Shown in pieces: positions 12,034-23,791 of a stretch of 23,796 nucleotides of DNA (positions are counted from its first letter, which is position 1; each line of letters starts with the position of its first letter). The stretch covers positions 1 to 23,796 of IMG/VR virus record IMGVR_UViG_3300026097_000106, one strand, 5' to 3'. Position numbers and translations under genes: made by a program. A model generated the notes under the pieces. The model worked only from the letters and a program-made list of their open reading frames with translations, ran no database searches and was not told the origin of the DNA. This DNA is from a virus.

Positions 12034-12240
12034 TTACTGACCTTCTCCCTCATTTTCAACCCTTGCAAGTTCTTCATCGGTCAAGCCTTCACCATCGCCA
12101 ACATCTAAACACCATTGACCGTTGTGTTCAATAGGATGTGACCACCAATAGATAGTAGGCGGTTGACACCCTCTTTTGAACGCTTCAAACTTGTTGCGCT
12201 CGTCTGCTTGTTCCTTTGTATCAAATGGTAGTAGCATCAT
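12034..12240 (-). CDS. Small hypothetical protein
   Basis: The 68-residue protein is rich in Trp, Glu and Gly, with a central PTIYWWSHPIEHNGQWCLDVGDGEG stretch split by Pro and an acidic tail. The ATG overlaps the stop of the large adhesin-like gene (ATGA), so it closes the head/tail transcript. The WxxH and W-C pattern gives no family I can name. It may be a small accessory or tail-assembly protein; that is position-based inference only. Confidence 0.6.
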   Translation of the reverse strand: MMLLPFDTKEQADERNKFEAFKRGCQPPTIYWWSHPIEHNGQWCLDVGDGEGLTDEELARVENEGEGQ

Positions 12241-14468
12241 GGCAATAAACTTGGCGTAAAGTTGTTGTCAATGTTGGCTTCGATTGCTGCTCGGTCTGCT
12301 GTCTTATCGGTAGCGTATGTTACTATACAGGCTATTTTACCTCTCATGTATGAAGATGTAGGTGAGTCCGACCTCGTTCCAATTCGAGTCACAACAGGGT
12401 CGTCTATCGTGCCCGATGCGCTCAAACCACCATCTACATATACACCCGTGTCTGCTAAAAATGACGCTAAATGAGGGTTGAAATCTTCAACGGATGTAAA
12501 CAAAGTATTCCCCGCGTCTTTCATACCTATACCAGTAATACCTGAGAAAGACCCACCCCAACTGAAACCTTGGTTATTACCACCCAACACGTAATTAATG
12601 GTGCTATACGCATCATTTTGAGCCACAATAAACGCTGAATTGACCGTTAATGGTGCGCTAATGGTATAATTATTTGAGTTGCCAACCATTGCAACGACAC
12701 CGTTCAAATCTTCAAGCACTCCTGCTGTTGCAATTTTAGCCTGATTGGCCGCGTTAGCAGCGGTAAATGTTACGCCAGATAAGTCTTGCGAATAACCTGT
12801 AACCAAGTATGCATCTGCATTTCCCAACCAATCACCGAATGTAGTTCCACTTCCATCTTCACTCAAAAGACTAAAACTGTTATTTGTGTCCAGATAAAAC
12901 GACTTCTGCTGTTGGTCGTTAGAACGTCTTACTAACGCAATTACATCGGAATATCCACCGCGTAATCGGCTGAACTGAAATGCAAAGTTTGCGCCTGCAC
13001 CTTCGGGCGTATCAAGCAAGAAAGCAGATGAAATAGTTACTTCTTGTGTTCCAAATGCAGTTACGTCAAGTGTACCATTCTCAACCCCAAGAACGTAAAT
13101 CTCATACGTGCCAACCTCAATAGACGGTATTGTCCAATTAAATGTGTTACTCGCTTGCTCTGCAATGAAAATAATTTCCCCTGTTCCATCGTATGCGAAG
13201 TATAGATAACTGTCAGGTGTGAAACTTGAAGGTGTTGCTGTTATTGTAACCATATCGCCTATACTTGGCGAAGTGTCGCTTACTGCTACGGATATTGAGC
13301 CTCCTCCAGCAGGACAACTCGGAATGATAAATGCCGACCCATTCCAACTTCCAACAGGTGAACCGTCTTGTGTTACTGGAATGTCCAACGAATCCTCCGA
13401 CTTAACATCTGCAACAGGTGAGCCGTTAATGCTTATTTCGCTATCGTCAATACTCCAATGAGTACCTTGCTTCGAGCCTACCTGTGTAATGTCGTTACTT
13501 TGAAGAACAAGAATGTTCTCCGTATCGCCCGATGCAATGTCCGCCATGTCAACCCCGTTCAATTGAACCGTAGCGTCTGCACATGGGTTAGAAGTTACCT
13601 CCCAACTATCACCATCCCACGAGCCACTTGGAACACCATCAAGGTTGACTGTAAAACTATCAGTGTCACCACTTGGAATTGTTCCAATAGTTGAACCATT
13701 TAATTGAACCGTTGCATCATCGCAATTTAACCCCAACGTAATACTAACACTAGCTGTTGCTGTTTCATCTCCGTTAACAGCAGTTACGGTATAGGTTACA
13801 TCTCCGGTTATCGTAACGGTCGTTGAGCCGTTAGCAGAAACCTCTCCTATTCCATTATCAATTGTAACTGTATCTGCATTCTCAGAAAACCAAGCCAATA
13901 CAACTTGATCACCTGAGTTCAGAACGGAATAACCCGATGAGTATAACTGAACCGTTGGTATAATAGGGCCGACTTGAGCAGAACCCGTTACTGTAATCTG
14001 TTCAATCAGAGTTGATACGTCTTGGTCAGGATCTCCAATAGCAACAGTCTTGGTTATCATGTCCAAGACAAAGCTGAATACGTTGTCGTTCATCCCATCA
14101 GGGTCAATCGGTTCAAAACCGACCATCTTTAATGGAAGAACGCAGTTGTCAGGCTTGTAACCGATAAGCAGCTTTTTAGCAAGGTCAGCTAGTTCATAAC
14201 ATCCTATTCTGCCACCATCTGTTCTTAGCCTTTTTGCCCTTATTATGACTTGGACTGATATGAACTCGTCTTGAATTGAATCATTCGTCAATGAATGAAT
14301 GTCATCAATGTTACCTTTGGATTTACCTGCAAAAACGGTAATTCTACCATTATGCTGCATACCCTTGTTGTCGCTAGGCTTAGATGGCATATACTCCACC
14401 TCATGTCCTGCGGTAACAATAGGAGCTAACCTAGCTACAATATCATCTTCAAGCTCTGAATAGATCAT
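12237..14468 (-). CDS. Gp37-like tail-terminator domain fused to Ig-like and lectin-like adhesion domains
   Basis: The 743-residue protein appears modular. Residues 1-145 resemble the Gp37 family, which includes the tail-terminator-type protein of Mu-like phages (MIYSELEDDIVARL, VQVIIRAKRLR, a late VGFEPIDPDG). Residues 163-246 are an Ig/PKD-like domain. Three related repeats of about 45 residues follow (251-296, 298-341, 343-385), each with an LNG or INGS motif and an SGDT- or SEDS-like turn. A second Ig-like domain (390-480) precedes a C-terminal Ser/Gly-rich domain (about 481-743), whose AFQFSRLRGGYSDVIALVRRS motif recalls arabinofuranosidase/concanavalin-like lectin domains of Bacteroidota phages. 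The likely role is a virion neck or tail protein decorated for glycan binding. The junction is uninterrupted in frame. Confidence 0.7.
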   Translation of the reverse strand: MIYSELEDDIVARLAPIVTAGHEVEYMPSKPSDNKGMQHNGRITVFAGKSKGNIDDIHSLTNDSIQDEFISVQVIIRAKRLRTDGGRIGCYELADLAKKLLIGYKPDNCVLPLKMVGFEPIDPDGMNDNVFSFVLDMITKTVAIGDPDQDVSTLIEQITVTGSAQVGPIIPTVQLYSSGYSVLNSGDQVVLAWFSENADTVTIDNGIGEVSANGSTTVTITGDVTYTVTAVNGDETATASVSITLGLNCDDATVQLNGSTIGTIPSGDTDSFTVNLDGVPSGSWDGDSWEVTSNPCADATVQLNGVDMADIASGDTENILVLQSNDITQVGSKQGTHWSIDDSEISINGSPVADVKSEDSLDIPVTQDGSPVGSWNGSAFIIPSCPAGGGSISVAVSDTSPSIGDMVTITATPSSFTPDSYLYFAYDGTGEIIFIAEQASNTFNWTIPSIEVGTYEIYVLGVENGTLDVTAFGTQEVTISSAFLLDTPEGAGANFAFQFSRLRGGYSDVIALVRRSNDQQQKSFYLDTNNSFSLLSEDGSGTTFGDWLGNADAYLVTGYSQDLSGVTFTAANAANQAKIATAGVLEDLNGVVAMVGNSNNYTISAPLTVNSAFIVAQNDAYSTINYVLGGNNQGFSWGGSFSGITGIGMKDAGNTLFTSVEDFNPHLASFLADTGVYVDGGLSASGTIDDPVVTRIGTRSDSPTSSYMRGKIACIVTYATDKTADRAAIEANIDNNFTPSLLP

Positions 14469-15213: not shown

Positions 15214-17160
15214 TTACGAGCCTACGTTTCTGAACAATCCTCTCCAATCAATCGCTTTAGCAGCGAAGAACATTCTAACTTTTACCTCCATGCTGTCAGT
15301 ATCGAAGTTCATCTTGTTCTCGGTTGTGAAATCTCCTTCACCATCAAGGAAAGCATATTCAATCGTGTCGATGTTGGTTGGAGCAGCACTTACGTACCAA
15401 TTATCTCCTGTCAATCGAGGATCAACGATAACTTCCATTGCACCTTGATAGATGTTCTTGTTAGCTACTGTTGATGGGAAGTGCGATTGAGTCATCCACT
15501 TGATAGCATCAGCTTCTGCTTCCGGTCCTACAATAAGATACCTAGGAGCAACATTGATGAACTTACCGTTCAATCCTGTTTGCTGTCGCATCTTCTTGAT
15601 CGCTTCTTTTAAAGTAGTGTCAGAAATAGCACCTCCTGTTCCATCGTTACCATGACTTGCAGAGTCAAACAAGCTGTTTCCATCTCCCATTGTTGGGTTT
15701 CCACTCAAAATTGAGTAAACGATGTCAGACTGCTTGTAACCAGCTTCGTAAGCGATAGCTCGTGGAATACGACTGAAAGCATCAAGGTCATCATTGATGA
15801 TTGTTTCATCTGTGATTTTAACCTTTTTACCGTACTTAACTAGAGAGTATTCCTCTTTAGCCTCGGTCATTGAATCTGCCTTGTACTCTGCTCCTTCTGG
15901 AATCTCTTCGAGTTTTCCGAGTAAGCCAGACAACTGATTCACAGACTTGGTTTTCAAGTCAGACATTGTTGTTCTACGGCAGAATGGTTGGAAAGTACGC
16001 TCAACCAGGTCATACTCAGCTCGAAGTGATTTGTTCACAGCGTTAGCTAAGATGTATGGGAAATCTGAACTAGACAAAGCACGAGAAGCCAATTCCAAGT
16101 TAGATGAAGTTCTAACGTTCTCACCCTTACGGATAAGTGCATCTTCAGCCATTCGGATAAGGCTCATTCCTCGGAATGAATCACCACCTTGTTTTGCTTC
16201 TTTAACGTAACCTGTTCTGAGAAGTATTCCTTCCTCCATTGCAGCACGAACCTTATCAGCTTCGTCTACACCTGTTCGGACTCCCTGACCTTTCACTTCT
16301 TGAGCAGGGTCATTCTTCTCAAGTTCATCAAGAATCAAAGCACGAGCTTCATCAACGGTCTTATCATTCTCGATAAGATTCGTCTTGAACTCGTCATCCA
16401 TCCCATGCTTACGGCACAGAGATGAAATCTCCAATGAACGTTTCTTTTCAGTTTCAACTGCTTCGGCTCTTGCCTTTTCAGCAGCTTTTTTAGCAGCCTC
16501 TTGAGCTTTTCTCTCTTGCTCTTTAGCCTCAGCTTCGTTTACTTCTGGCATTTTTGTAGTTTGTTGGTTTTCTTTATTAGTTTTAGCGGTCTTTTCGGAA
16601 CGCTCTGATTGCAAATTTACGTCAATTATTTCGACTTGGTGCAATTCCTCGCTATTTTTTCTGATAAATGCGTTAGGATCTGCTTGAATCGGTGCTAAAC
16701 TGATTTCAAACGGCTCCCAATCAATAGCTCGGAGTTTTGGAATTTCACCCTCACCGACTTCTTCTTTCATGTACTTATATACCCGATAACCGAAACTGAT
16801 ACCACTCAAGATACCATCTCGTACATCTTGCCAAATACCTTTCACATCTTCTCGGTTTGAGAATCGCAATTTAGCTATACCCTTACCATCCTCAGTTCGG
16901 TATTCGTCAACCTTTCCAAGAACACCTTTAGCTCCTTCGTATCGGTTGTGGTTATCCAACAATGGCGCACCGTTGTCGAATCTATCCCATCTTACTGAAC
17001 CTTCTGAGAAGTCCATGATTTCCATGAACTCACCCATATCCCAATCATACATTCTGACCGGTGTATCAGTACCGAATACAACTTCAACAGTCCTTTCTTC
17101 CTCGTTTACAGTTGATGGAACAAAAGCTGCCCTAGCTTGTAATTCACCTAATTTTGGCAT
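15214..17160 (-). CDS. Prohead protease/major capsid protein fusion
   Basis: The 648-residue polyprotein has an HK97-type prohead protease at about 1-170, with LLDNHN (H71) and DGILSGISFGYRV (Ser near 119-122) as the His/Ser catalytic elements. A charged Ala/Glu/Lys helical segment (205-245), likely the scaffolding delta region, is followed by an HK97/Mu-gpT-like major capsid domain (about 300-648, including RYLIVGPEAEADAIKW). The fusion is known in some phages, where self-cleavage frees the capsid subunit. Here a promoter-like box (16619-16612) and an internal ATG at 16551 (M204, MPEVNEAEAK) mark the junction and could give a separate scaffold-capsid product. The gene has its own TAACTTTG box upstream. 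Confidence 0.88.
   Translation of the reverse strand: MPKLGELQARAAFVPSTVNEEERTVEVVFGTDTPVRMYDWDMGEFMEIMDFSEGSVRWDRFDNGAPLLDNHNRYEGAKGVLGKVDEYRTEDGKGIAKLRFSNREDVKGIWQDVRDGILSGISFGYRVYKYMKEEVGEGEIPKLRAIDWEPFEISLAPIQADPNAFIRKNSEELHQVEIIDVNLQSERSEKTAKTNKENQQTTKMPEVNEAEAKEQERKAQEAAKKAAEKARAEAVETEKKRSLEISSLCRKHGMDDEFKTNLIENDKTVDEARALILDELEKNDPAQEVKGQGVRTGVDEADKVRAAMEEGILLRTGYVKEAKQGGDSFRGMSLIRMAEDALIRKGENVRTSSNLELASRALSSSDFPYILANAVNKSLRAEYDLVERTFQPFCRRTTMSDLKTKSVNQLSGLLGKLEEIPEGAEYKADSMTEAKEEYSLVKYGKKVKITDETIINDDLDAFSRIPRAIAYEAGYKQSDIVYSILSGNPTMGDGNSLFDSASHGNDGTGGAISDTTLKEAIKKMRQQTGLNGKFINVAPRYLIVGPEAEADAIKWMTQSHFPSTVANKNIYQGAMEVIVDPRLTGDNWYVSAAPTNIDTIEYAFLDGEGDFTTENKMNFDTDSMEVKVRMFFAAKAIDWRGLFRNVGS
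16612..16619 (-). promoter_or_regulatory. Internal TAAATTTG -7-like box at the protease-capsid junction
   Basis: The minus strand reads TAAATTTG, a full -7 match, 61 nt upstream of the in-frame ATG at 16551. A TTG lies 22 nt upstream, slightly beyond the usual spacing. It falls exactly at the domain boundary. Confidence 0.35.
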
Positions 17161-17195: not shown

Positions 17196-18683
17196 TTAAC
17201 TCGGATCATCTTCATTGTCATCCGTATTCTCACCTGATGTAGCAGGTCTACCTGCTCCTGTTCCTTTCGGTTTGATTCCTTGCCTTGGGTCTGATTCTAA
17301 AACAACTCCTGCTTTATCAATCATCTCATTCCAATCCTTGATTTCTTCTACCACTTTCTCAGGGTCGTAACCTTGCTCTCGGATAGCATCAGGAGGTGAA
17401 ATCAAACCATTACGCATTGCTTCACCAATAGCCTTGATTTCTTTCGCAGGGTCAATCATTTCCCTTCTTGGTGGAACCCATTCAGCAGTTACATTAACCG
17501 TACCGCTTCTTAATTCGTAGGCTTCAATGAACCAATCCCATATCTTTTGACAGAACTGAGGTATCAATAGGTTGTATTGCCAATCCTCAATGTTTCGATG
17601 GTGTTCAATCCAACCCATACGACCAGAACTGAAGTTGACGTTATTGAGATCGCCTGTTAGGTTCTCATAGGTTGTTCCGAATCCTGCCGCAACAGATTGA
17701 AGTATAGTTCTACTGAACTCACCGAAATTCTCTACTGATGGTGGTTGTCCGAATTTCACATCCTCACCAGGAGCAAGTCGATAAACCATTCCGGGTTCTA
17801 CTCTTGAGAACTCTTCTTCTTCAGCAGATGTAGCAGGACCATCCGTAGGACTCGTGATCTGAACAGAATAACAAGCAGCTACTTTCTGTTTTACAACTTG
17901 AGCATCTTGGTATTCATCCATGTCTCTTACCCGCATGAAAGCAGAAACACCAAATGGAACACCTATCTGTTGTCCTGGTCGTGATTGTTCAAATACGTGA
18001 ATAACCGAATCAGCAGGAACTAACTTAGATGAAAGACTACCTACATTCATAGGGTCTCCTGGATGTTTGTCAAACAACCAATAACCAATTCTATCTCCTT
18101 TCTGATTGAAACGGATTCCCATAAAGTCGTAAGAACCATCTTGATTTCCTGTACCTAGAACCAATGAGTTCTTGGTGTGGTCCAAGTAATCAATTTCCAA
18201 TACTTGAAGTCGTAATGGAATCTTTCTTGACTTATCCCAATGCTTTACAATAAGGCAGTCTCCAGATTCAACAACAGCTCGGACAACCATTTTCTGAATA
18301 CCGTAACCATTCTTGAATCCATCATGGTCACACTTGGTTGTGTCGAACCAATTCGTGAAGTCTTGATATACCTTTTCCTTCTGTCTCTTGTTCTTCGAGT
18401 TTATCTTGGCTCGTATACCTGTTCCAACTACATTGTTTGATATAGACTGAACTGCTCTTTTTACGAATGGGTTATTTCGTGTCAATTCACGACTTCTGTC
18501 TCGTAATGTTTGAGCAGCAGCATAGGCTTCAGCGTTCTGAGATGAACCAGATGTAGACCATGAAGAAGTTCTTCGTGTTCCTTTACTTGCAGCATCGTAA
18601 GCTCTTAAAGCTCTACGTGCTTGTTCTCGTCTCAACGCATACTGAGGTGCAACGAGTTTGATTATCTGCTCGAATCTGTTCAA
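17196..18683 (-). CDS. Lambda-type portal protein with TTG start
   Basis: The 495-residue portal of the lambda gpB family (phage_portal_2) has an Arg-rich N-terminus, the TRNNPFVKRAVQSISNNVVGTG segment (68-89, typical of the family clip/wing start) and ESGDCLIVKHWD (about 138-149). Late conserved stretches include NVNFSSGRMGWIEH and a C-terminal Gly/Pro/Asp-rich tail. It forms the ring at the capsid vertex through which DNA passes. The start is TTG overlapping the gpW-like stop (TTGA), with AAAGGA just upstream; no in-frame ATG exists before the conserved region, so TTG is well supported. Confidence 0.88.
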   Translation of the reverse strand: MNRFEQIIKLVAPQYALRREQARRALRAYDAASKGTRRTSSWSTSGSSQNAEAYAAAQTLRDRSRELTRNNPFVKRAVQSISNNVVGTGIRAKINSKNKRQKEKVYQDFTNWFDTTKCDHDGFKNGYGIQKMVVRAVVESGDCLIVKHWDKSRKIPLRLQVLEIDYLDHTKNSLVLGTGNQDGSYDFMGIRFNQKGDRIGYWLFDKHPGDPMNVGSLSSKLVPADSVIHVFEQSRPGQQIGVPFGVSAFMRVRDMDEYQDAQVVKQKVAACYSVQITSPTDGPATSAEEEEFSRVEPGMVYRLAPGEDVKFGQPPSVENFGEFSRTILQSVAAGFGTTYENLTGDLNNVNFSSGRMGWIEHHRNIEDWQYNLLIPQFCQKIWDWFIEAYELRSGTVNVTAEWVPPRREMIDPAKEIKAIGEAMRNGLISPPDAIREQGYDPEKVVEEIKDWNEMIDKAGVVLESDPRQGIKPKGTGAGRPATSGENTDDNEDDPS

Positions 18684-19065: not shown

Positions 19066-20958
19066 CTAATACCCATCCCAAAAACCACCAGAACGTTTCT
19101 TTTTAGGTTTGGTCGTTTCACGATTGACAGGAACGGAATTTTCAGACTTCTTGACCTTGTATTTTCCTATCAAGTTATCCCAATGCGAATCATTGAATCG
19201 GTCCAACCCAACAATAGCTGCTGCTGCTCTTGAATAAACTCGGCAATCCAAAGGCTCATTCCTTTCATAAACCTTCTCCCAATACAATTTGCGATAACCA
19301 TGATGTTCTCTGTACTTCAATTCCTCTGCTGTTATACCCTTGAAGTATTCAATTGGGTACTCAGGAAAGTGACAGAATCCACTAGGTCTTTCACCTTCTT
19401 CATCCACGCCAATACGTAGATTAGCGTAAACCTCAGATTTCGCAACACCGACACCAACATTCCACATCTTCATAGATCCCGTTGATTTTCCGTTCCAAGC
19501 AACATCAACTGTACTCGGTCTACCAATAATGGTAGCTTGGTTGTCTCTACCCTTTACAGGTACAACCTTTGTAGATGAATGTTTCCTACACCAATTGTAA
19601 ACGGTCTGAGTGTTGTTTCCAGAGTCAACAGCCATCATAAGCATAGGTAGTTCAACGCCATCCGGTCTGTACCATTTCTCATTAACAACTTCATCTAACT
19701 GTTTCCAAGCATCACCATCAGGAGTAGACGTATCACCATAAAGCACTCGGTAGTCAATTGAATAGGTTGTCTTATCCCTACACCATCCAACTACTTCAAG
19801 TTCGATTCGTGAGTTCTTTCCTGCTTGAATATCCACTCCAACCGTTATCATTTCCACCGAATTGTTCGGTTTGTTTCGGTCATAGCTTTCTCGCCTTTCG
19901 TAAAGCATCTCCCAATCCGGAGCTTCACCTCTATCTTCCCAAGGTTGACCTAGTACTGTATTGATAAATGTTCTAAGCAGAACGGCATTGTCCTTATCCT
20001 TTAAGAATTGAGTAGCTATTTCTTCCCAAGACATCCAACCCAAAGGTGAATAAAGCGAGTTGATTCGATAACCTGCAACAAGCGGGTCAGACATCTCAGG
20101 TCTTGTTGGTTCCCAAACACCGTTCATCAGCATTTGAGTTTTGTACTTTTCTTCAATCAGAACACCGCAACCTTCACAAGCGTACTTAGCTGTTTCTGGT
20201 TTACCGCTATCCCATTTTAAGTTGTCAAATTCTAACTCTTGCTTGTGATCACAATGAGGACATGGGACTTTGTAAACTCGTTCGTCTGTTTCTGATAATT
20301 CCTTTGCTATTACGGATGTACCTGCTGCCGTTGGAGTTGAAAGCAGGAATATCTTCTTGTCCGAGAATGTAGTTGTACGTTTCTCAGCAAGTCTGATCGG
20401 ACTACCTTCATCATCAATAGATAACGGATAAGCATCAACCTCATCTAGCAGAAGCACCTTAACAGGATTGGAACGCAACCCGGAAGCTGAGTTAGCACCC
20501 GTTAGGAATAGTACACCTCCAGGAAAGTTCTTCTCCAATATCGTACTTGAACCTTCTCTACGGTTTGAATCAATCACTTTGTCTTTCAAGGTTGGAGATT
20601 CATTGATAAGGTGAAACAGTCTTTTCTTGGATAACTGTTTTGCCATATCCACCGTTGGCATAACGTACATTACAGGAGCAGGAGCAATGTCGATGTAAGC
20701 ACCAACACAGTTCAAAGCAGCTTCAGTCCCTGAAATCTGAACACCTTTCATAAACACCACTCGTTGACATGGGTCTGATGGAGATAGCTTCTTGAATATC
20801 TCTCTCATGTAAGGTACTCTATCCGTTCTCCAACGTCCAGGTTCTGCTGAACTTACCGAACTAAGGAATCTGTACTTGTCAGCCCATTCATCAACTGTTA
20901 GGTCGGGGATTGGTCTGAGCCCTTCTAGGAAGCCTTGGATGTGCGGAGATGGGTTCAT
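19066..20958 (-). CDS. Terminase large subunit, GpA type
   Basis: The 630-residue DNA-packaging motor has an N-terminal ATPase with a deviant Walker A region MKGVQISGTEAAL (70-82), as in GpA-type terminases where the Lys sits early. VMYVMPT follows (97-102), and Walker B is VLLLDEVDAYP (168-178). A Cys4 zinc-binding insertion (C233, C236, C261, C264) and a C-terminal RNase H-like nuclease (TVGVDIQAG; AVDSGNN) complete it. I use the ATG at 20958 rather than an upstream TTG (20982), because the upper site would overlap the 41-residue gene that ends at 20966. No small terminase subunit is visible nearby. Confidence 0.92.
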   Translation of the reverse strand: MNPSPHIQGFLEGLRPIPDLTVDEWADKYRFLSSVSSAEPGRWRTDRVPYMREIFKKLSPSDPCQRVVFMKGVQISGTEAALNCVGAYIDIAPAPVMYVMPTVDMAKQLSKKRLFHLINESPTLKDKVIDSNRREGSSTILEKNFPGGVLFLTGANSASGLRSNPVKVLLLDEVDAYPLSIDDEGSPIRLAEKRTTTFSDKKIFLLSTPTAAGTSVIAKELSETDERVYKVPCPHCDHKQELEFDNLKWDSGKPETAKYACEGCGVLIEEKYKTQMLMNGVWEPTRPEMSDPLVAGYRINSLYSPLGWMSWEEIATQFLKDKDNAVLLRTFINTVLGQPWEDRGEAPDWEMLYERRESYDRNKPNNSVEMITVGVDIQAGKNSRIELEVVGWCRDKTTYSIDYRVLYGDTSTPDGDAWKQLDEVVNEKWYRPDGVELPMLMMAVDSGNNTQTVYNWCRKHSSTKVVPVKGRDNQATIIGRPSTVDVAWNGKSTGSMKMWNVGVGVAKSEVYANLRIGVDEEGERPSGFCHFPEYPIEYFKGITAEELKYREHHGYRKLYWEKVYERNEPLDCRVYSRAAAAIVGLDRFNDSHWDNLIGKYKVKKSENSVPVNRETTKPKKKRSGGFWDGY

Positions 20959-20965
20959 GCTGTTC

Positions 20966-21091
20966 TTAGGCGTAATTAGCAAACACTAAAGCCATTATGG
21001 TAATTATTAAAATAGCTATATAAGAAAAGTCACCACCACCTTTATTCCAAGTTGTTTGACTAGTAGTTGTTCTAGGTCTTTTTTTGCTCAT
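20966..21091 (-). CDS. 41-aa single-pass membrane peptide
   Basis: The ATG overlaps the stop of the galactosyltransferase gene (ATGA) and the frame ends 7 nt before the terminase start, filling the gap exactly. The peptide has a basic head (MSKKRPRTTT), a Gly-rich hinge and one hydrophobic helix, DFSYIAILIITIMALVFANY, near its C-terminus. Coupling argues strongly that it is translated. The basic N-terminus and single helix could suit a small holin, an anchor for the glycosyltransferase or a membrane-active peptide. No family is recognised. Confidence 0.65.
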   Translation of the reverse strand: MSKKRPRTTTSQTTWNKGGGDFSYIAILIITIMALVFANYA

Positions 21092-21732
21092 ATCGAAACA
21101 GTAACATTCAATACACCTTTATCTAATTCCTCTTGATTGACCAATTCAAACCGAAGCGTGTTAATACCATCCTTACTTGTGTCGTACCAATTAGCGAATC
21201 TTTTTCCATTCTTCGCGTGTAGTTTCTTCTGCTCTTTTTGTTCCAATGCGTGTTCGTGCGATAATGATTGGAACGGATTGGATTCGACTCTTGTTACCTT
21301 AACATCTGCTTCTTGGCAACGTTTAAGCATATCGTCATCTTCTGCACCCCAACCCCAATACTCGTTTGAGTAACCATTAGTTCGTTGGAACGCATCTGCT
21401 GAAAATACAGTAACACCACCAAAGTATTCATCGTAAGGCATCTTTCCACCGAATTGAGTTGCAGCAGAAGCAAGATGAACCGCATCACCTAGTTCGTACT
21501 TGGTGAACTTGGTAGGAATCATATCAACATCATGCGTTATTACATGAGTAGCACCTTGTTGGAAAGAAACAACCGAACCTACATTAAGTAATTTCGCTCT
21601 GTTGAATGGTTTACCTTGTTCTTGTTCTACAATTAGAACCGGGTAATTTACCTTTAACTTGCGTAAAGCTCTAATCAATACAGGTAGGTGTTCTTTTCTA
21701 TCTCGGTATGGTACGACTATGAATGGGTTCAT
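21088..21732 (-). CDS. Beta-1,4-galactosyltransferase-like (GT7) glycosyltransferase
   Basis: The 214-residue protein matches the catalytic domain of animal beta-1,4-galactosyltransferases almost end to end. It has VPYRDR (7-12), FNRAKLLNVG (43-52), the metal-binding DVD in HDVDMIP (67-73), YFGGV (103-107), WGWGAEDDD (126-134), a His-rich SHEH (158-161), KRF (177-179) and DGINTLRFELV (188-198). The Tyr before FGG matches the residue that favours UDP-galactose in bovine B4GALT1 (Tyr289). There is no stem or membrane anchor. Neighbours are a GT-A-like protein, a methyltransferase and a membrane peptide. Family and catalytic residues are clear; donor, acceptor (virion, host glycan or DNA) and role are inference. 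Confidence 0.85.
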   Translation of the reverse strand: MNPFIVVPYRDRKEHLPVLIRALRKLKVNYPVLIVEQEQGKPFNRAKLLNVGSVVSFQQGATHVITHDVDMIPTKFTKYELGDAVHLASAATQFGGKMPYDEYFGGVTVFSADAFQRTNGYSNEYWGWGAEDDDMLKRCQEADVKVTRVESNPFQSLSHEHALEQKEQKKLHAKNGKRFANWYDTSKDGINTLRFELVNQEELDKGVLNVTVSI

Positions 21733-22055
21733 TCTTCAACTGTTCTCTTTTTCAATATTTCAACCAATTGTTCGTAGCTGTTCTCTTTCATTAGTTTATC
21801 CATGTAAAACCTATCGGCTTGCCTACACTTACCATTTGAAATTACATAAGGTCTTGGATAGCAGATTGACGGTGGATATCCATGCTCGAACAGGCCATAT
21901 TCAATAACTAACCCATCCTTTTCATAAGCATTGAATAGATTTGTCATAGATGATAAGTTGGCATATCCATTTACTTTTTTCATCCGTTTTTTTCTAGTGT
22001 CAATGTGGTAACACTTAAAACCCTGCTCAATTAAATATTCTTCAAACTTTGTCAT
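21729..22055 (-). CDS. Hypothetical protein in glycosyltransferase cassette
   Basis: The 108-residue basic protein starts with a helix and KCYHIDTRKKRMKKVNGYANLSS, then has GLVIEYGLFEHGYPPSICYPRPYVI and a C-terminal helix rich in Glu and Lys. It shows no motif I know. ATGA overlaps on both sides tie it to the GT-A-like and GT7 genes. It could be an accessory or acceptor-recognition subunit for these enzymes, judged only by neighbourhood. Confidence 0.6.
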   Translation of the reverse strand: MTKFEEYLIEQGFKCYHIDTRKKRMKKVNGYANLSSMTNLFNAYEKDGLVIEYGLFEHGYPPSICYPRPYVISNGKCRQADRFYMDKLMKENSYEQLVEILKKRTVEE

Positions 22056-22723
22056 CTCTGCTTTGCTATTAATGATTCCTTAAATCGTTCGTCAATTCGT
22101 TTATTCTGCTCTTCGTTGGTTGTGTATTCACGAGAATACCAAGTATGTATTGCAAAAGGTCTGTTCTTGTACTTGATGATAGTGCTGATTCCATCCTCAT
22201 GTAAATCACCATGCAACCAAAGTGGTTCTCCGTACTCGAATAACCAGTTGAAAAAACCATTGAACGGCTCCCACATTGACTTTTCATATTCGGGTATGAA
22301 GTCTGGTTTTCTGTCATTCATGCTAGGTCGAAATCCGAAGTCTCGAACGTCCTCCAATCGTTCCAAATTAAAAGGAATCGAACTTTTAATCCAATCCGAA
22401 GCAAACAGATTGAAGAACGGATTCATTACAGCCCAAGATATGTTGTTCCTTCCAGATAAGCATCCACCATCTGAAATACCTGCATGAGTGTACGTTCCTT
22501 CTCGGAAGTCCTTGATAAGCTGATTCAGAACCGATTCATCCGTAATAAAACAATCTATATCAATGTTCATGGCTACTTCATCACCATGCGAAACAACCCA
22601 TTCCAAGTAGTCTGCTGCGTGAGTCCAATGATTGAAACCTTCTCCTTTGATGACTTCATAAGGACAAAGCGATTGCATCCTGTCAAATAGAACTGAATTG
22701 TTGTATCTAGTGTATGCTTTCAC
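22052..22723 (-). CDS. Putative GT-A-like glycosyltransferase
   Basis: The 223-residue protein shows features expected of a GT-A fold enzyme. An N-terminal strand/helix region (SVLFDRMQSLCPYEVIKG) is followed by NIDIDCFI near residues 53-60, a DxD-type nucleotide-sugar and metal site. GISDGGCLSGRNN follows near 83-95, and late His/Trp residues appear (AIHTWYSREY). Phages often encode such proteins but the family is divergent, so this is a fold-level judgement. The start is GTG, overlapping the methyltransferase stop (GTGA). It shares an operon with a GT7 enzyme, which strengthens a sugar-transfer role. Confidence 0.5.
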   Translation of the reverse strand: MKAYTRYNNSVLFDRMQSLCPYEVIKGEGFNHWTHAADYLEWVVSHGDEVAMNIDIDCFITDESVLNQLIKDFREGTYTHAGISDGGCLSGRNNISWAVMNPFFNLFASDWIKSSIPFNLERLEDVRDFGFRPSMNDRKPDFIPEYEKSMWEPFNGFFNWLFEYGEPLWLHGDLHEDGISTIIKYKNRPFAIHTWYSREYTTNEEQNKRIDERFKESLIAKQR

Positions 22724-23436
22724 TTCGCTTTTGTTTTGTCAAATACATAAATACTGTTCTTGAACCACGGCAGGTCAGCTCCTGCAATATCGCGCAGTTC
22801 TTGACTAAGGTCTTGCTTGAAAGAGAAACCTAGCTTCTCAATGGTCGGAATGACGTAATTCGCATTTCGTTCGTTCACATGACCGCAACCACCTTGTCCT
22901 TCAATACCCCAAGACAGAATCAATCTACCATTACAAGCGTTCTTGATGTTTGCTAGGACTTTCTTTTCTAGTTTAGCAGGTATGTGTTCCATAACCTCTA
23001 AGCAAAGCACAGAACCTCGTTTGACTCCTTTTATCTGCTTGGTAATATCCTGCTTCTTAATGAACTCAGGCGCATCTTTCAAAGGCTGACCTTCATAGCC
23101 TTGAACCTTGTATCGGAAATTCTTGAGTCGTTTAATGTACTCTCCATTACCGCATCCAAGGTCTATCACCATTTTATTTGCAGGAAGCACGTTAGGTAAT
23201 CTCCGAGCAAGTCGGTAAGATGTCTTGTGTTCTTTTTCGGATTGCTCTTTAGTGAATATTCCGTTTTCGTTTATCTGATCCATGTATTCGATTTTTGATT
23301 CGTGTAATGTGTAAGTGTCTAACCTATCTTCATCAGCGTACATTGAGATTGATAGGTTTCCTTTAGTGTAAGTCTCTCCAAGTAGTTCAAAACCTGCTTG
23401 AATTAGGTTTCTGTGGTTGATTCTAGTTTTTGGCAT
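22720..23436 (-). CDS. Class I SAM-dependent methyltransferase
   Basis: The 238-residue protein has motif I VIDLGCGNGEY (90-100), a later acidic YEGQ (114-117), CLEVMEHIP (145-153) and a conserved SWG...GQGGCGHVN stretch (175-188) seen in Methyltransf_23-like enzymes of phages. It resembles small-molecule or glycan-type methyltransferases more than DNA methylases, since the DPPY-type motif is absent. It leads a coupled cassette with two glycosyltransferase-like genes, suggesting methylation of a sugar or of a modified product. The substrate cannot be told from sequence. Confidence 0.78.
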   Translation of the reverse strand: MPKTRINHRNLIQAGFELLGETYTKGNLSISMYADEDRLDTYTLHESKIEYMDQINENGIFTKEQSEKEHKTSYRLARRLPNVLPANKMVIDLGCGNGEYIKRLKNFRYKVQGYEGQPLKDAPEFIKKQDITKQIKGVKRGSVLCLEVMEHIPAKLEKKVLANIKNACNGRLILSWGIEGQGGCGHVNERNANYVIPTIEKLGFSFKQDLSQELRDIAGADLPWFKNSIYVFDKTKAK

Positions 23437-23443
23437 CTTTGAT

Positions 23444-23791
23444 TTACTTTATGGTTAGTTCTTGACCCGTCAAAGCAAAGTAGAGGTTTTGGAGTTGGTG
23501 TGCATATTTAATTACCGCCATTCCATGCTTATATTGCATCCAATAACCTCTTTCATCTACTTTTACCCTAAATCCGTCTTTTGTTTGGTAAGCCGTAGGT
23601 ATTGACATTTCTATTTTCTCAAAACCGAAACGCTCCAACCATTCTTGTGTTAGTGGTATTGCTATACAGTACTTATCAATATATCCAGTTTCTGTTTCTA
23701 TCTGCAAATCATTTAAGATTGCCGTTACTACAGTAACCCCATCATTAGGCTGTTCTACAAAATTCCCAATACGTAGTTCGTTTACTCTCAT
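23444..23791 (-). CDS. Hypothetical Bacteroidota-phage protein
   Basis: The 115-residue protein opens MRVNELRIGNFVEQ and contains IPLTQEWLERFGFEK and a C-terminal HQLQNLYFALTGQEL. I recall this combination from uncharacterised proteins widespread in phages and mobile elements of Bacteroidota. The content is beta-rich with aromatic clusters; no catalytic motif is seen. It lies 7 nt upstream of the methyltransferase gene on the same strand, and is the most upstream complete gene visible. Confidence 0.7.
   Translation of the reverse strand: MRVNELRIGNFVEQPNDGVTVVTAILNDLQIETETGYIDKYCIAIPLTQEWLERFGFEKIEMSIPTAYQTKDGFRVKVDERGYWMQYKHGMAVIKYAHQLQNLYFALTGQELTIK

Follow-up and report, generated by a model that had tools for sequence, protein, structure and literature searches.

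A GT7-family glycosyltransferase gene beside phage head genes and its recurring glycosyltransferase-methyltransferase cassette

GT7 is usually regarded as an animal Golgi family of glycosyltransferases, and a gene of this kind lying beside the packaging genes of a phage raises the question of what its product does there and on what it would act. The locus was studied in a viral metagenome record of 23,796 bases (the window), in which the first-pass annotation had described a phage-encoded enzyme closely resembling animal beta-1,4-galactosyltransferase. The features of the locus are presented in Table 1.

Table 1. Genes and predicted functional residues of the window, and the adjoining GTX gene (positions of the window unless preceded by L002, an overlapping contig).
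Feature	Position	Strand	Evidence or remark
Fused head protease/major head protein	15214..17160	(-)	phrog_4523 1.4e-205; Pfam Phage_capsid_4 1.1e-54
Portal protein, head module downstream	17196..18683	(-)	Pfam Phage_portal_2 1.9e-96
Terminase large subunit (TerL)	19066..20982	(-)	Pfam GpA_ATPase 2.5e-87, GpA_nuclease 3e-84
GT7-family glycosyltransferase	21088..21732	(-)	214 aa; Pfam GT7N/GT7C, PDB phmmer, AF2 model, Foldseek
H159 codon, predicted metal ligand (bovine H347)	21256..21258	(-)	H in 136/143
E131-D134 codons, including predicted catalytic base D132	21331..21342	(-)	D132 in 143/143
Y103 codon, donor-specificity position (bovine Y289)	21424..21426	(-)	Y in 116/143, else L/I/F/C/W/T
D68-V69-D70 codons, predicted metal/UDP-binding DxD	21523..21531	(-)	Invariant in alignment A1; D70 in 141/143
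P108	21729..22055	(-)	108 aa; 4-bp overlap with GT7; among the loci, only the identical virus has P108
P223, unnamed family, predicted GT-A fold	22052..22723	(-)	Two genes before GT7; linkage and model
D55-x-D57 codons, DxD-like motif of P223	22553..22561	(-)	Invariant in 15 aligned sequences
Class I SAM-dependent methyltransferase (MT)	22720..23436	(-)	238 aa; profile matches SAM methyltransferases in PDB
P116, phage protein (phrog_10066) inside the cassette	23444..23791	(-)	115 aa; PHROG 1.3e-21
GTX, GT2 family	L002:5274-5945		Just past window end; Pfam Glycos_transf_2 1.9e-10

The GT7 gene and its virus

The open reading frame is complete from ATG to stop. Its product matches both Pfam domains of the family, PF02709 (1.4e-24, 85.9 bits, for a curated cut-off of 23) and PF13733 (2.5e-15, 56.7 bits, for a cut-off of 27). 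A phmmer search against the PDB, from which the GT7-family enzymes returned were animal only, yielded human B4GALT1 (3.8e-28) and human B4GALT7 (1.7e-23). Over 183 aligned residues the protein is 35% identical to bovine B4GALT1, and its identity to B4GALT7 is 28%. The AF2 model, built from 13 phage sequences, presents a mean pLDDT of 91.7. When the model was submitted to Foldseek, ranks 1 to 30 were all B4GALT1 or B4GALT7, with E values from 2.9e-19 (human B4GALT1, the best match) to 1.4e-12 and a TM of 0.89-0.90 for B4GALT1, while the next family appeared at 1.1e-07, about five orders of magnitude weaker than rank 30. This ranking indicates a B4GALT-type GT-A fold, not a generic GT2 fold. All six motifs listed by the first-pass annotation (VPYRDR, FNRAKLLNVG, HDVDMIP, YFGGV, WGWGAEDDD and DGINTL) are present in that order, and the structural comparison it had proposed agrees with its family call. 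Hence, the assignment of this gene to GT7 is secure. An ASCH domain match (PF04266, 0.002) in the same region was rejected as a chance match, given that it is below the cut-off and overlaps GT7.

In the model, the first core strand begins after only three residues, which leaves no stem or anchor, as had been noted earlier. The protein has a single cysteine, and the animal disulphides are therefore absent. The sequence and model predict a soluble enzyme of family GT7, an inverting GT-A glycosyltransferase that depends on a metal. The soluble form and the place beside packaging genes had both been described before, and both held: TerL is the first gene downstream of the cassette described below, after a gap of 105 bp. 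A soluble, disulphide-free GT7 of 214 residues would also be a useful source of a B4GALT-like enzyme for bacterial expression.

Residue correspondence was obtained by aligning the window GT7 among 143 viral or bacterial GT7 sequences and three animal ones, with bovine B4GALT1 numbering. Bovine DVD 252-254 corresponds to D68-V69-D70, R228 to R45, Y289 to Y103 and the metal ligand H347 to H159, and the WGWGxEDDD motif spans W126 to D134, with the catalytic base D318 at D132. The tyrosine said to favour UDP-galactose in the bovine enzyme is indeed kept, though the position is variable among the relatives, and this variation suggests that the donor probably varies across them. With Y103 and R45 in place, UDP-galactose is a plausible donor, and may be taken as the likely one for the window enzyme.

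L002, an overlapping contig of the same virus with 27,806 bases, shares 10,706 bases with the window at 100% identity and extends it by about 16 kb. Together, the two describe a myovirus with a contractile tail (tail sheath, baseplate, tape measure and head closure), head and packaging genes (terminase small subunit, TerL, portal and capsid/protease) and replication genes of its own (helicase, primase/polymerase and exonuclease). TerL is closest to that of Wolbachia phage WO, at 47%. Given that neither the window nor L002 yielded an integrase and that the virus has its own replication genes, lysogenic conversion is less likely, and the phage looks virulent.

Two further genes of this virus deserve mention. 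At positions 12237-14468 the window encodes a 743-aa protein whose N-terminus is Gp37-like and whose long remaining part has only weak domain matches (DUF2807); its relatives in L005 and L007 are much shorter. Just past the window, L002:3975-4523 encodes a 182-aa protein with an EDDV motif, which may be a further glycosyltransferase and has no Pfam or PHROG match.

The cassette and its P223 member

The main point about this locus was not visible to the earlier reader: GT7 belongs to a set of linked genes, three for glycosyltransferases and one for a methyltransferase. The recurring cassette comprises a GT2-family gene (GTX), the MT, P223 and GT7. The gene order in the window virus is GTX-P116-MT-P223-P108-GT7-TerL, and neighbouring cassette genes overlap by 4 bp, including GTX, which lies 5' of P116 in L002. 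The MT matches Pfam Methyltransf_23 at 2.2e-05, slightly under the cut-off. Of the two interposed genes, P108 has no Pfam, PHROG or NCBIfam match, and P116 has homologues that precede P223 in L074 and L078.

The scan for P223 yielded 36 contigs, 34 of which have a GT7 gene within 6 kb (33 clear and one weak, in L140), and the remaining two end inside P223. All four genes are present in 20 P223 loci and GTX, P223 and GT7 in 17, some contigs being counted twice because they were found by both scans. Among the GT7 loci that lack P223, GTX is present in only 3 of 71. The arrangement of the cassette varies: MT-P223-GT7, P223-GT7, or a GTX-GT7 fusion followed by P223 and MT, the fusion protein having 431-441 aa in one group. 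In L005, GT7 is on the opposite strand. This variation in order, fusion and strand argues for a functional bond among the genes, and against a linkage that merely reflects shared descent of one stretch. Profile comparisons of P223 with GTX, of P223 with GT7 and of GTX with GT7 all showed no similarity.

Head genes adjoin the cassette in the window (TerL, portal and capsid), in L098 (head protease and portal) and in L088 (portal). The cassette is also found in two contigs of a Bacteroidetes MAG (46-16), without clear phage head genes. These hold two versions of it (L036:2983-5538 and L042:781-5911) with an extra GT2-like gene nearby, and a PF11860 muramidase gene lies beside one of the two. P223-like proteins were also observed near GT7, on the opposite strand, in the large-phage contigs L063, L068, L069, L071 and L072 (up to 373 kb).

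The window P223 has no Pfam, PHROG or NCBIfam match, and P223 could not be matched solidly by sequence to a named glycosyltransferase family; three of 15 members weakly match Glycos_transf_2, at 6.6e-4 in the best case. In an alignment of 15 sequences (A2), the invariant positions are D55-x-D57-C58-F59, NPFF, EPF and H193-x-W-Y-x-R, which include the DxD and a C-terminal candidate metal histidine (H193). The AF2 model presents a pLDDT of 90.3, and its top Foldseek matches are GT-A enzymes, all weak: the best TM is about 0.5 and the others are near or below it, with 2p6w among them (0.47-0.51). The model thus points to P223 as a candidate GT-A glycosyltransferase of an unnamed family.

The proposed pathway and its target

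The analysis establishes GT7 membership with intact catalytic residues and predicted DxD/His metal residues, a tight linkage of GT7 to P223, the frequent presence of GTX and MT in the same block, and a location next to head genes. Given three glycosyltransferases of different families and a methyltransferase, all apparently soluble, the simplest reading is a short pathway. Since this recurring cassette lies next to head genes, a short sugar chain of the virus's own making is probable, and the particle itself may be what it decorates.

We infer the donor and linkage, catalysis by P223, the sequence of reactions and a target on the virion as follows. GTX and P223 would add sugars, after which GT7 would add a further beta-linked sugar, most likely by transferring galactose (or a related hexose or HexNAc) from a UDP-sugar to O4 of an acceptor sugar, and MT would methylate the glycan. 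Assembly would take place in the host cytoplasm and yield a short methylated oligosaccharide, and the acceptor would most likely be a virion protein encoded by the late genes next to the cassette. Taken as a whole, this reading has in our judgement an even chance of being right: GT7 would act as one step of a phage pathway (GTX, P223, GT7 and MT), the product would be a short methylated glycan, and its most likely carrier would be a virion protein. The virion target is favoured because of the head-gene position in several lineages, the virulent-looking genome and the precedents compared below. A broader claim would be that P223 founds a new glycosyltransferase family tied to GT7 and that, with GTX and MT, they form a dedicated pathway that lets many uncultured phages cover their virions with a methylated glycan, maybe with animal-type beta-1,4-galactose; put so broadly, it is rather unlikely to hold.

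The main rival to a virion target is host-surface modification, in which the sugars and the methyl group would be placed on a host surface glycan or a lipid-linked precursor, on the cytoplasmic side, and would block superinfection or mask receptors. Surface-glycan clusters commonly contain glycosyltransferases and methyltransferases of the kind found in the cassette, GTX weakly matches EPS and teichuronic acid glycosyltransferase models, and bacterial copies of the cassette and of GT7 exist. Morons that alter the host often lie on the strand opposite the structural genes, a placement that the cassette has in L074 and L087, and an integrase was found in 2 of 19 cassette contigs. These opposite-strand copies, the integrases and the copies in the Bacteroidetes MAG keep this alternative close behind. 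However, no membrane-bound flippase, polyprenol glycosyltransferase or Gtr-type partner was recognised in the window and the flanking ORFs scanned, the window phage looks virulent, with its own replication genes and no integrase found, and the position of the cassette tracks head genes in several lineages. Host-surface modification is a tenable explanation, if a somewhat improbable one.

The first-pass annotation had also offered DNA as a target, in which case the enzymes would glycosylate hydroxymethylated bases of the phage DNA, as T4 and related phages do. DNA hypermodification clusters contain glycosyltransferases and methyltransferases, and a DNA methyltransferase-like gene of the same virus lies just past the window (L002:3319-3978). 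Yet the known T4 DNA glycosyltransferases are GT-B enzymes. The thymidylate synthase/dCMP hydroxymethylase family (PF00303) was found in none of 20 records (the window and 19 cassette contigs, which are fragments), and the positive controls matched; TET/JBP was found in none of the 19 contigs, in a search where the positive control gave no match either. Given that no hydroxymethylating partner was found in these records, DNA glycosylation is disfavoured, and we consider it highly improbable.

The GT7 family and phage-encoded glycosylation are both known; what sets this locus apart is the conserved cassette of several glycosyltransferases with an unnamed GT-A-like partner. The cassette is a small system in which the proposed glycosylation of a phage by its own enzymes can be tested, and P223 may represent a new glycosyltransferase family.

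Integrity and origin of the GT7 gene, and known systems

One of the three metal ligands of B4GALT1, M344, is replaced by Ser156 in the window protein, as would be expected if the gene encoded a real fold that is non-catalytic or decaying. Loss of metal-site residues in close homologues was what the earlier annotation had named as evidence against its proposal, and the outcome is divided: the aspartate and histidine ligands are kept, whereas the methionine is serine or cysteine in most relatives. The M344 position aligns with a threonine in B4GALT7. The window sequence H159-E-H161 has the H-x-H of B4GALT7, with H161 present in only 34 of 143 sequences and the first histidine alone being general. 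The catalytic base, the DxD and the histidine are kept, and dN/dS is about 0.12 in comparison with the L003 relative, which is 72% identical and for which dS is close to saturation. These observations speak against a non-catalytic or decaying protein, which is very unlikely.

As a single query, the window GT7 protein found 22 viral loci, and a profile of 13 GT7 sequences found 314 relatives in viral contigs, 80 of which were retrieved, and relatives in 22 bacterial contigs. Hence, the GT7 family is not confined to animals; uncultured phages commonly carry it, and some of the contigs concerned exceed 400 kb. When three GT7 proteins from different phages were searched by tblastn, no match was obtained in 50,697 phage records, among which TerL, the positive control, matched 1,034; a fourth phage GT7 had only two matches, in uncultured huge phages of 630-640 kb. 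A literature search of incomplete coverage found no paper on GT7 in phages.

The nearest relatives of the window GT7 are all from phages, with identities of 72, 59 and 54%, in comparison with 35% for B4GALT1. In a tree of 76 sequences, it falls within a starred clade made up of phages only (100/95); the animal enzymes are distant from it and have long branches in two separate places, a single animal clade not being rejected (AU p of 0.206). The view of the enzyme as an animal-like oddity finds no support, given this broad phage and bacterial population. Recent horizontal capture of an animal B4GALT would account for an animal enzyme being the best solved-structure match, though the PDB returned only animal GT7s, but the tree and the identities contradict it, the stem, anchor and disulphide cysteines are all missing, and we give it next to no credence.

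The wider GT7 population includes some unusual architectures. In one phage group (L084:7986-9398, L094:7932-9398 and similar loci), the GT7 domain is interrupted by a Laminin_G_3 lectin domain (PF13385, 2.3e-17), which follows the catalytic helix and precedes the metal histidine, and the loci of this group have two or three GT7 genes each. On a 116 kb contig, a GT7 domain is fused to an unrelated N-terminal GT-A-like domain (L020:7248-8642). In Flavitalea sp. BT771, a GT7 gene is flanked by two NRPS genes (L053:5974-6633), which suggests a glycosylated natural product.

In comparison with known systems, the window GT7 shares with B4GALT1 the GT-A fold (TM 0.89-0.90), the DxD, the equivalents of R228, Y289 and H347, and WGWGxEDDD with its catalytic base. 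It differs in being 35% identical, in having no stem, anchor or disulphides, in the serine at M344, and in being predicted to be cytosolic and lying beside two other glycosyltransferases and a methyltransferase. With B4GALT7 it shares the GT7 fold and motifs and, together with its close relatives, the H-x-H at the metal position; identity is 28%, and the H-x-H is not kept across phage relatives. The best viral fold matches, from the BFVD structure library, are giant-virus GT7s (for example A0A5J6VLB6, A0A076FM45 and A0A481YZG5; TM 0.76-0.85), which belong to eukaryotic viruses and are 22-27% identical.

Two precedents concern viral particles. According to the account in PMC11256854, which cites Freeman 2023, glycosylation of the virion by glycosyltransferases that the phages themselves encode has been reported in mycobacteriophages; the likeness drawn here is one of function. 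The second is A64R of chlorovirus PBCV-1, an algal virus. A64R is a single polypeptide with no GT7, and its likeness to P223, which weakly matches 2p6w, a structure of the A64R type, is by fold only. It does combine a GT-A domain with a methyltransferase domain, as the cassette combines such genes, and it is discussed as acting on the glycan of the major capsid protein (PMC4691112).
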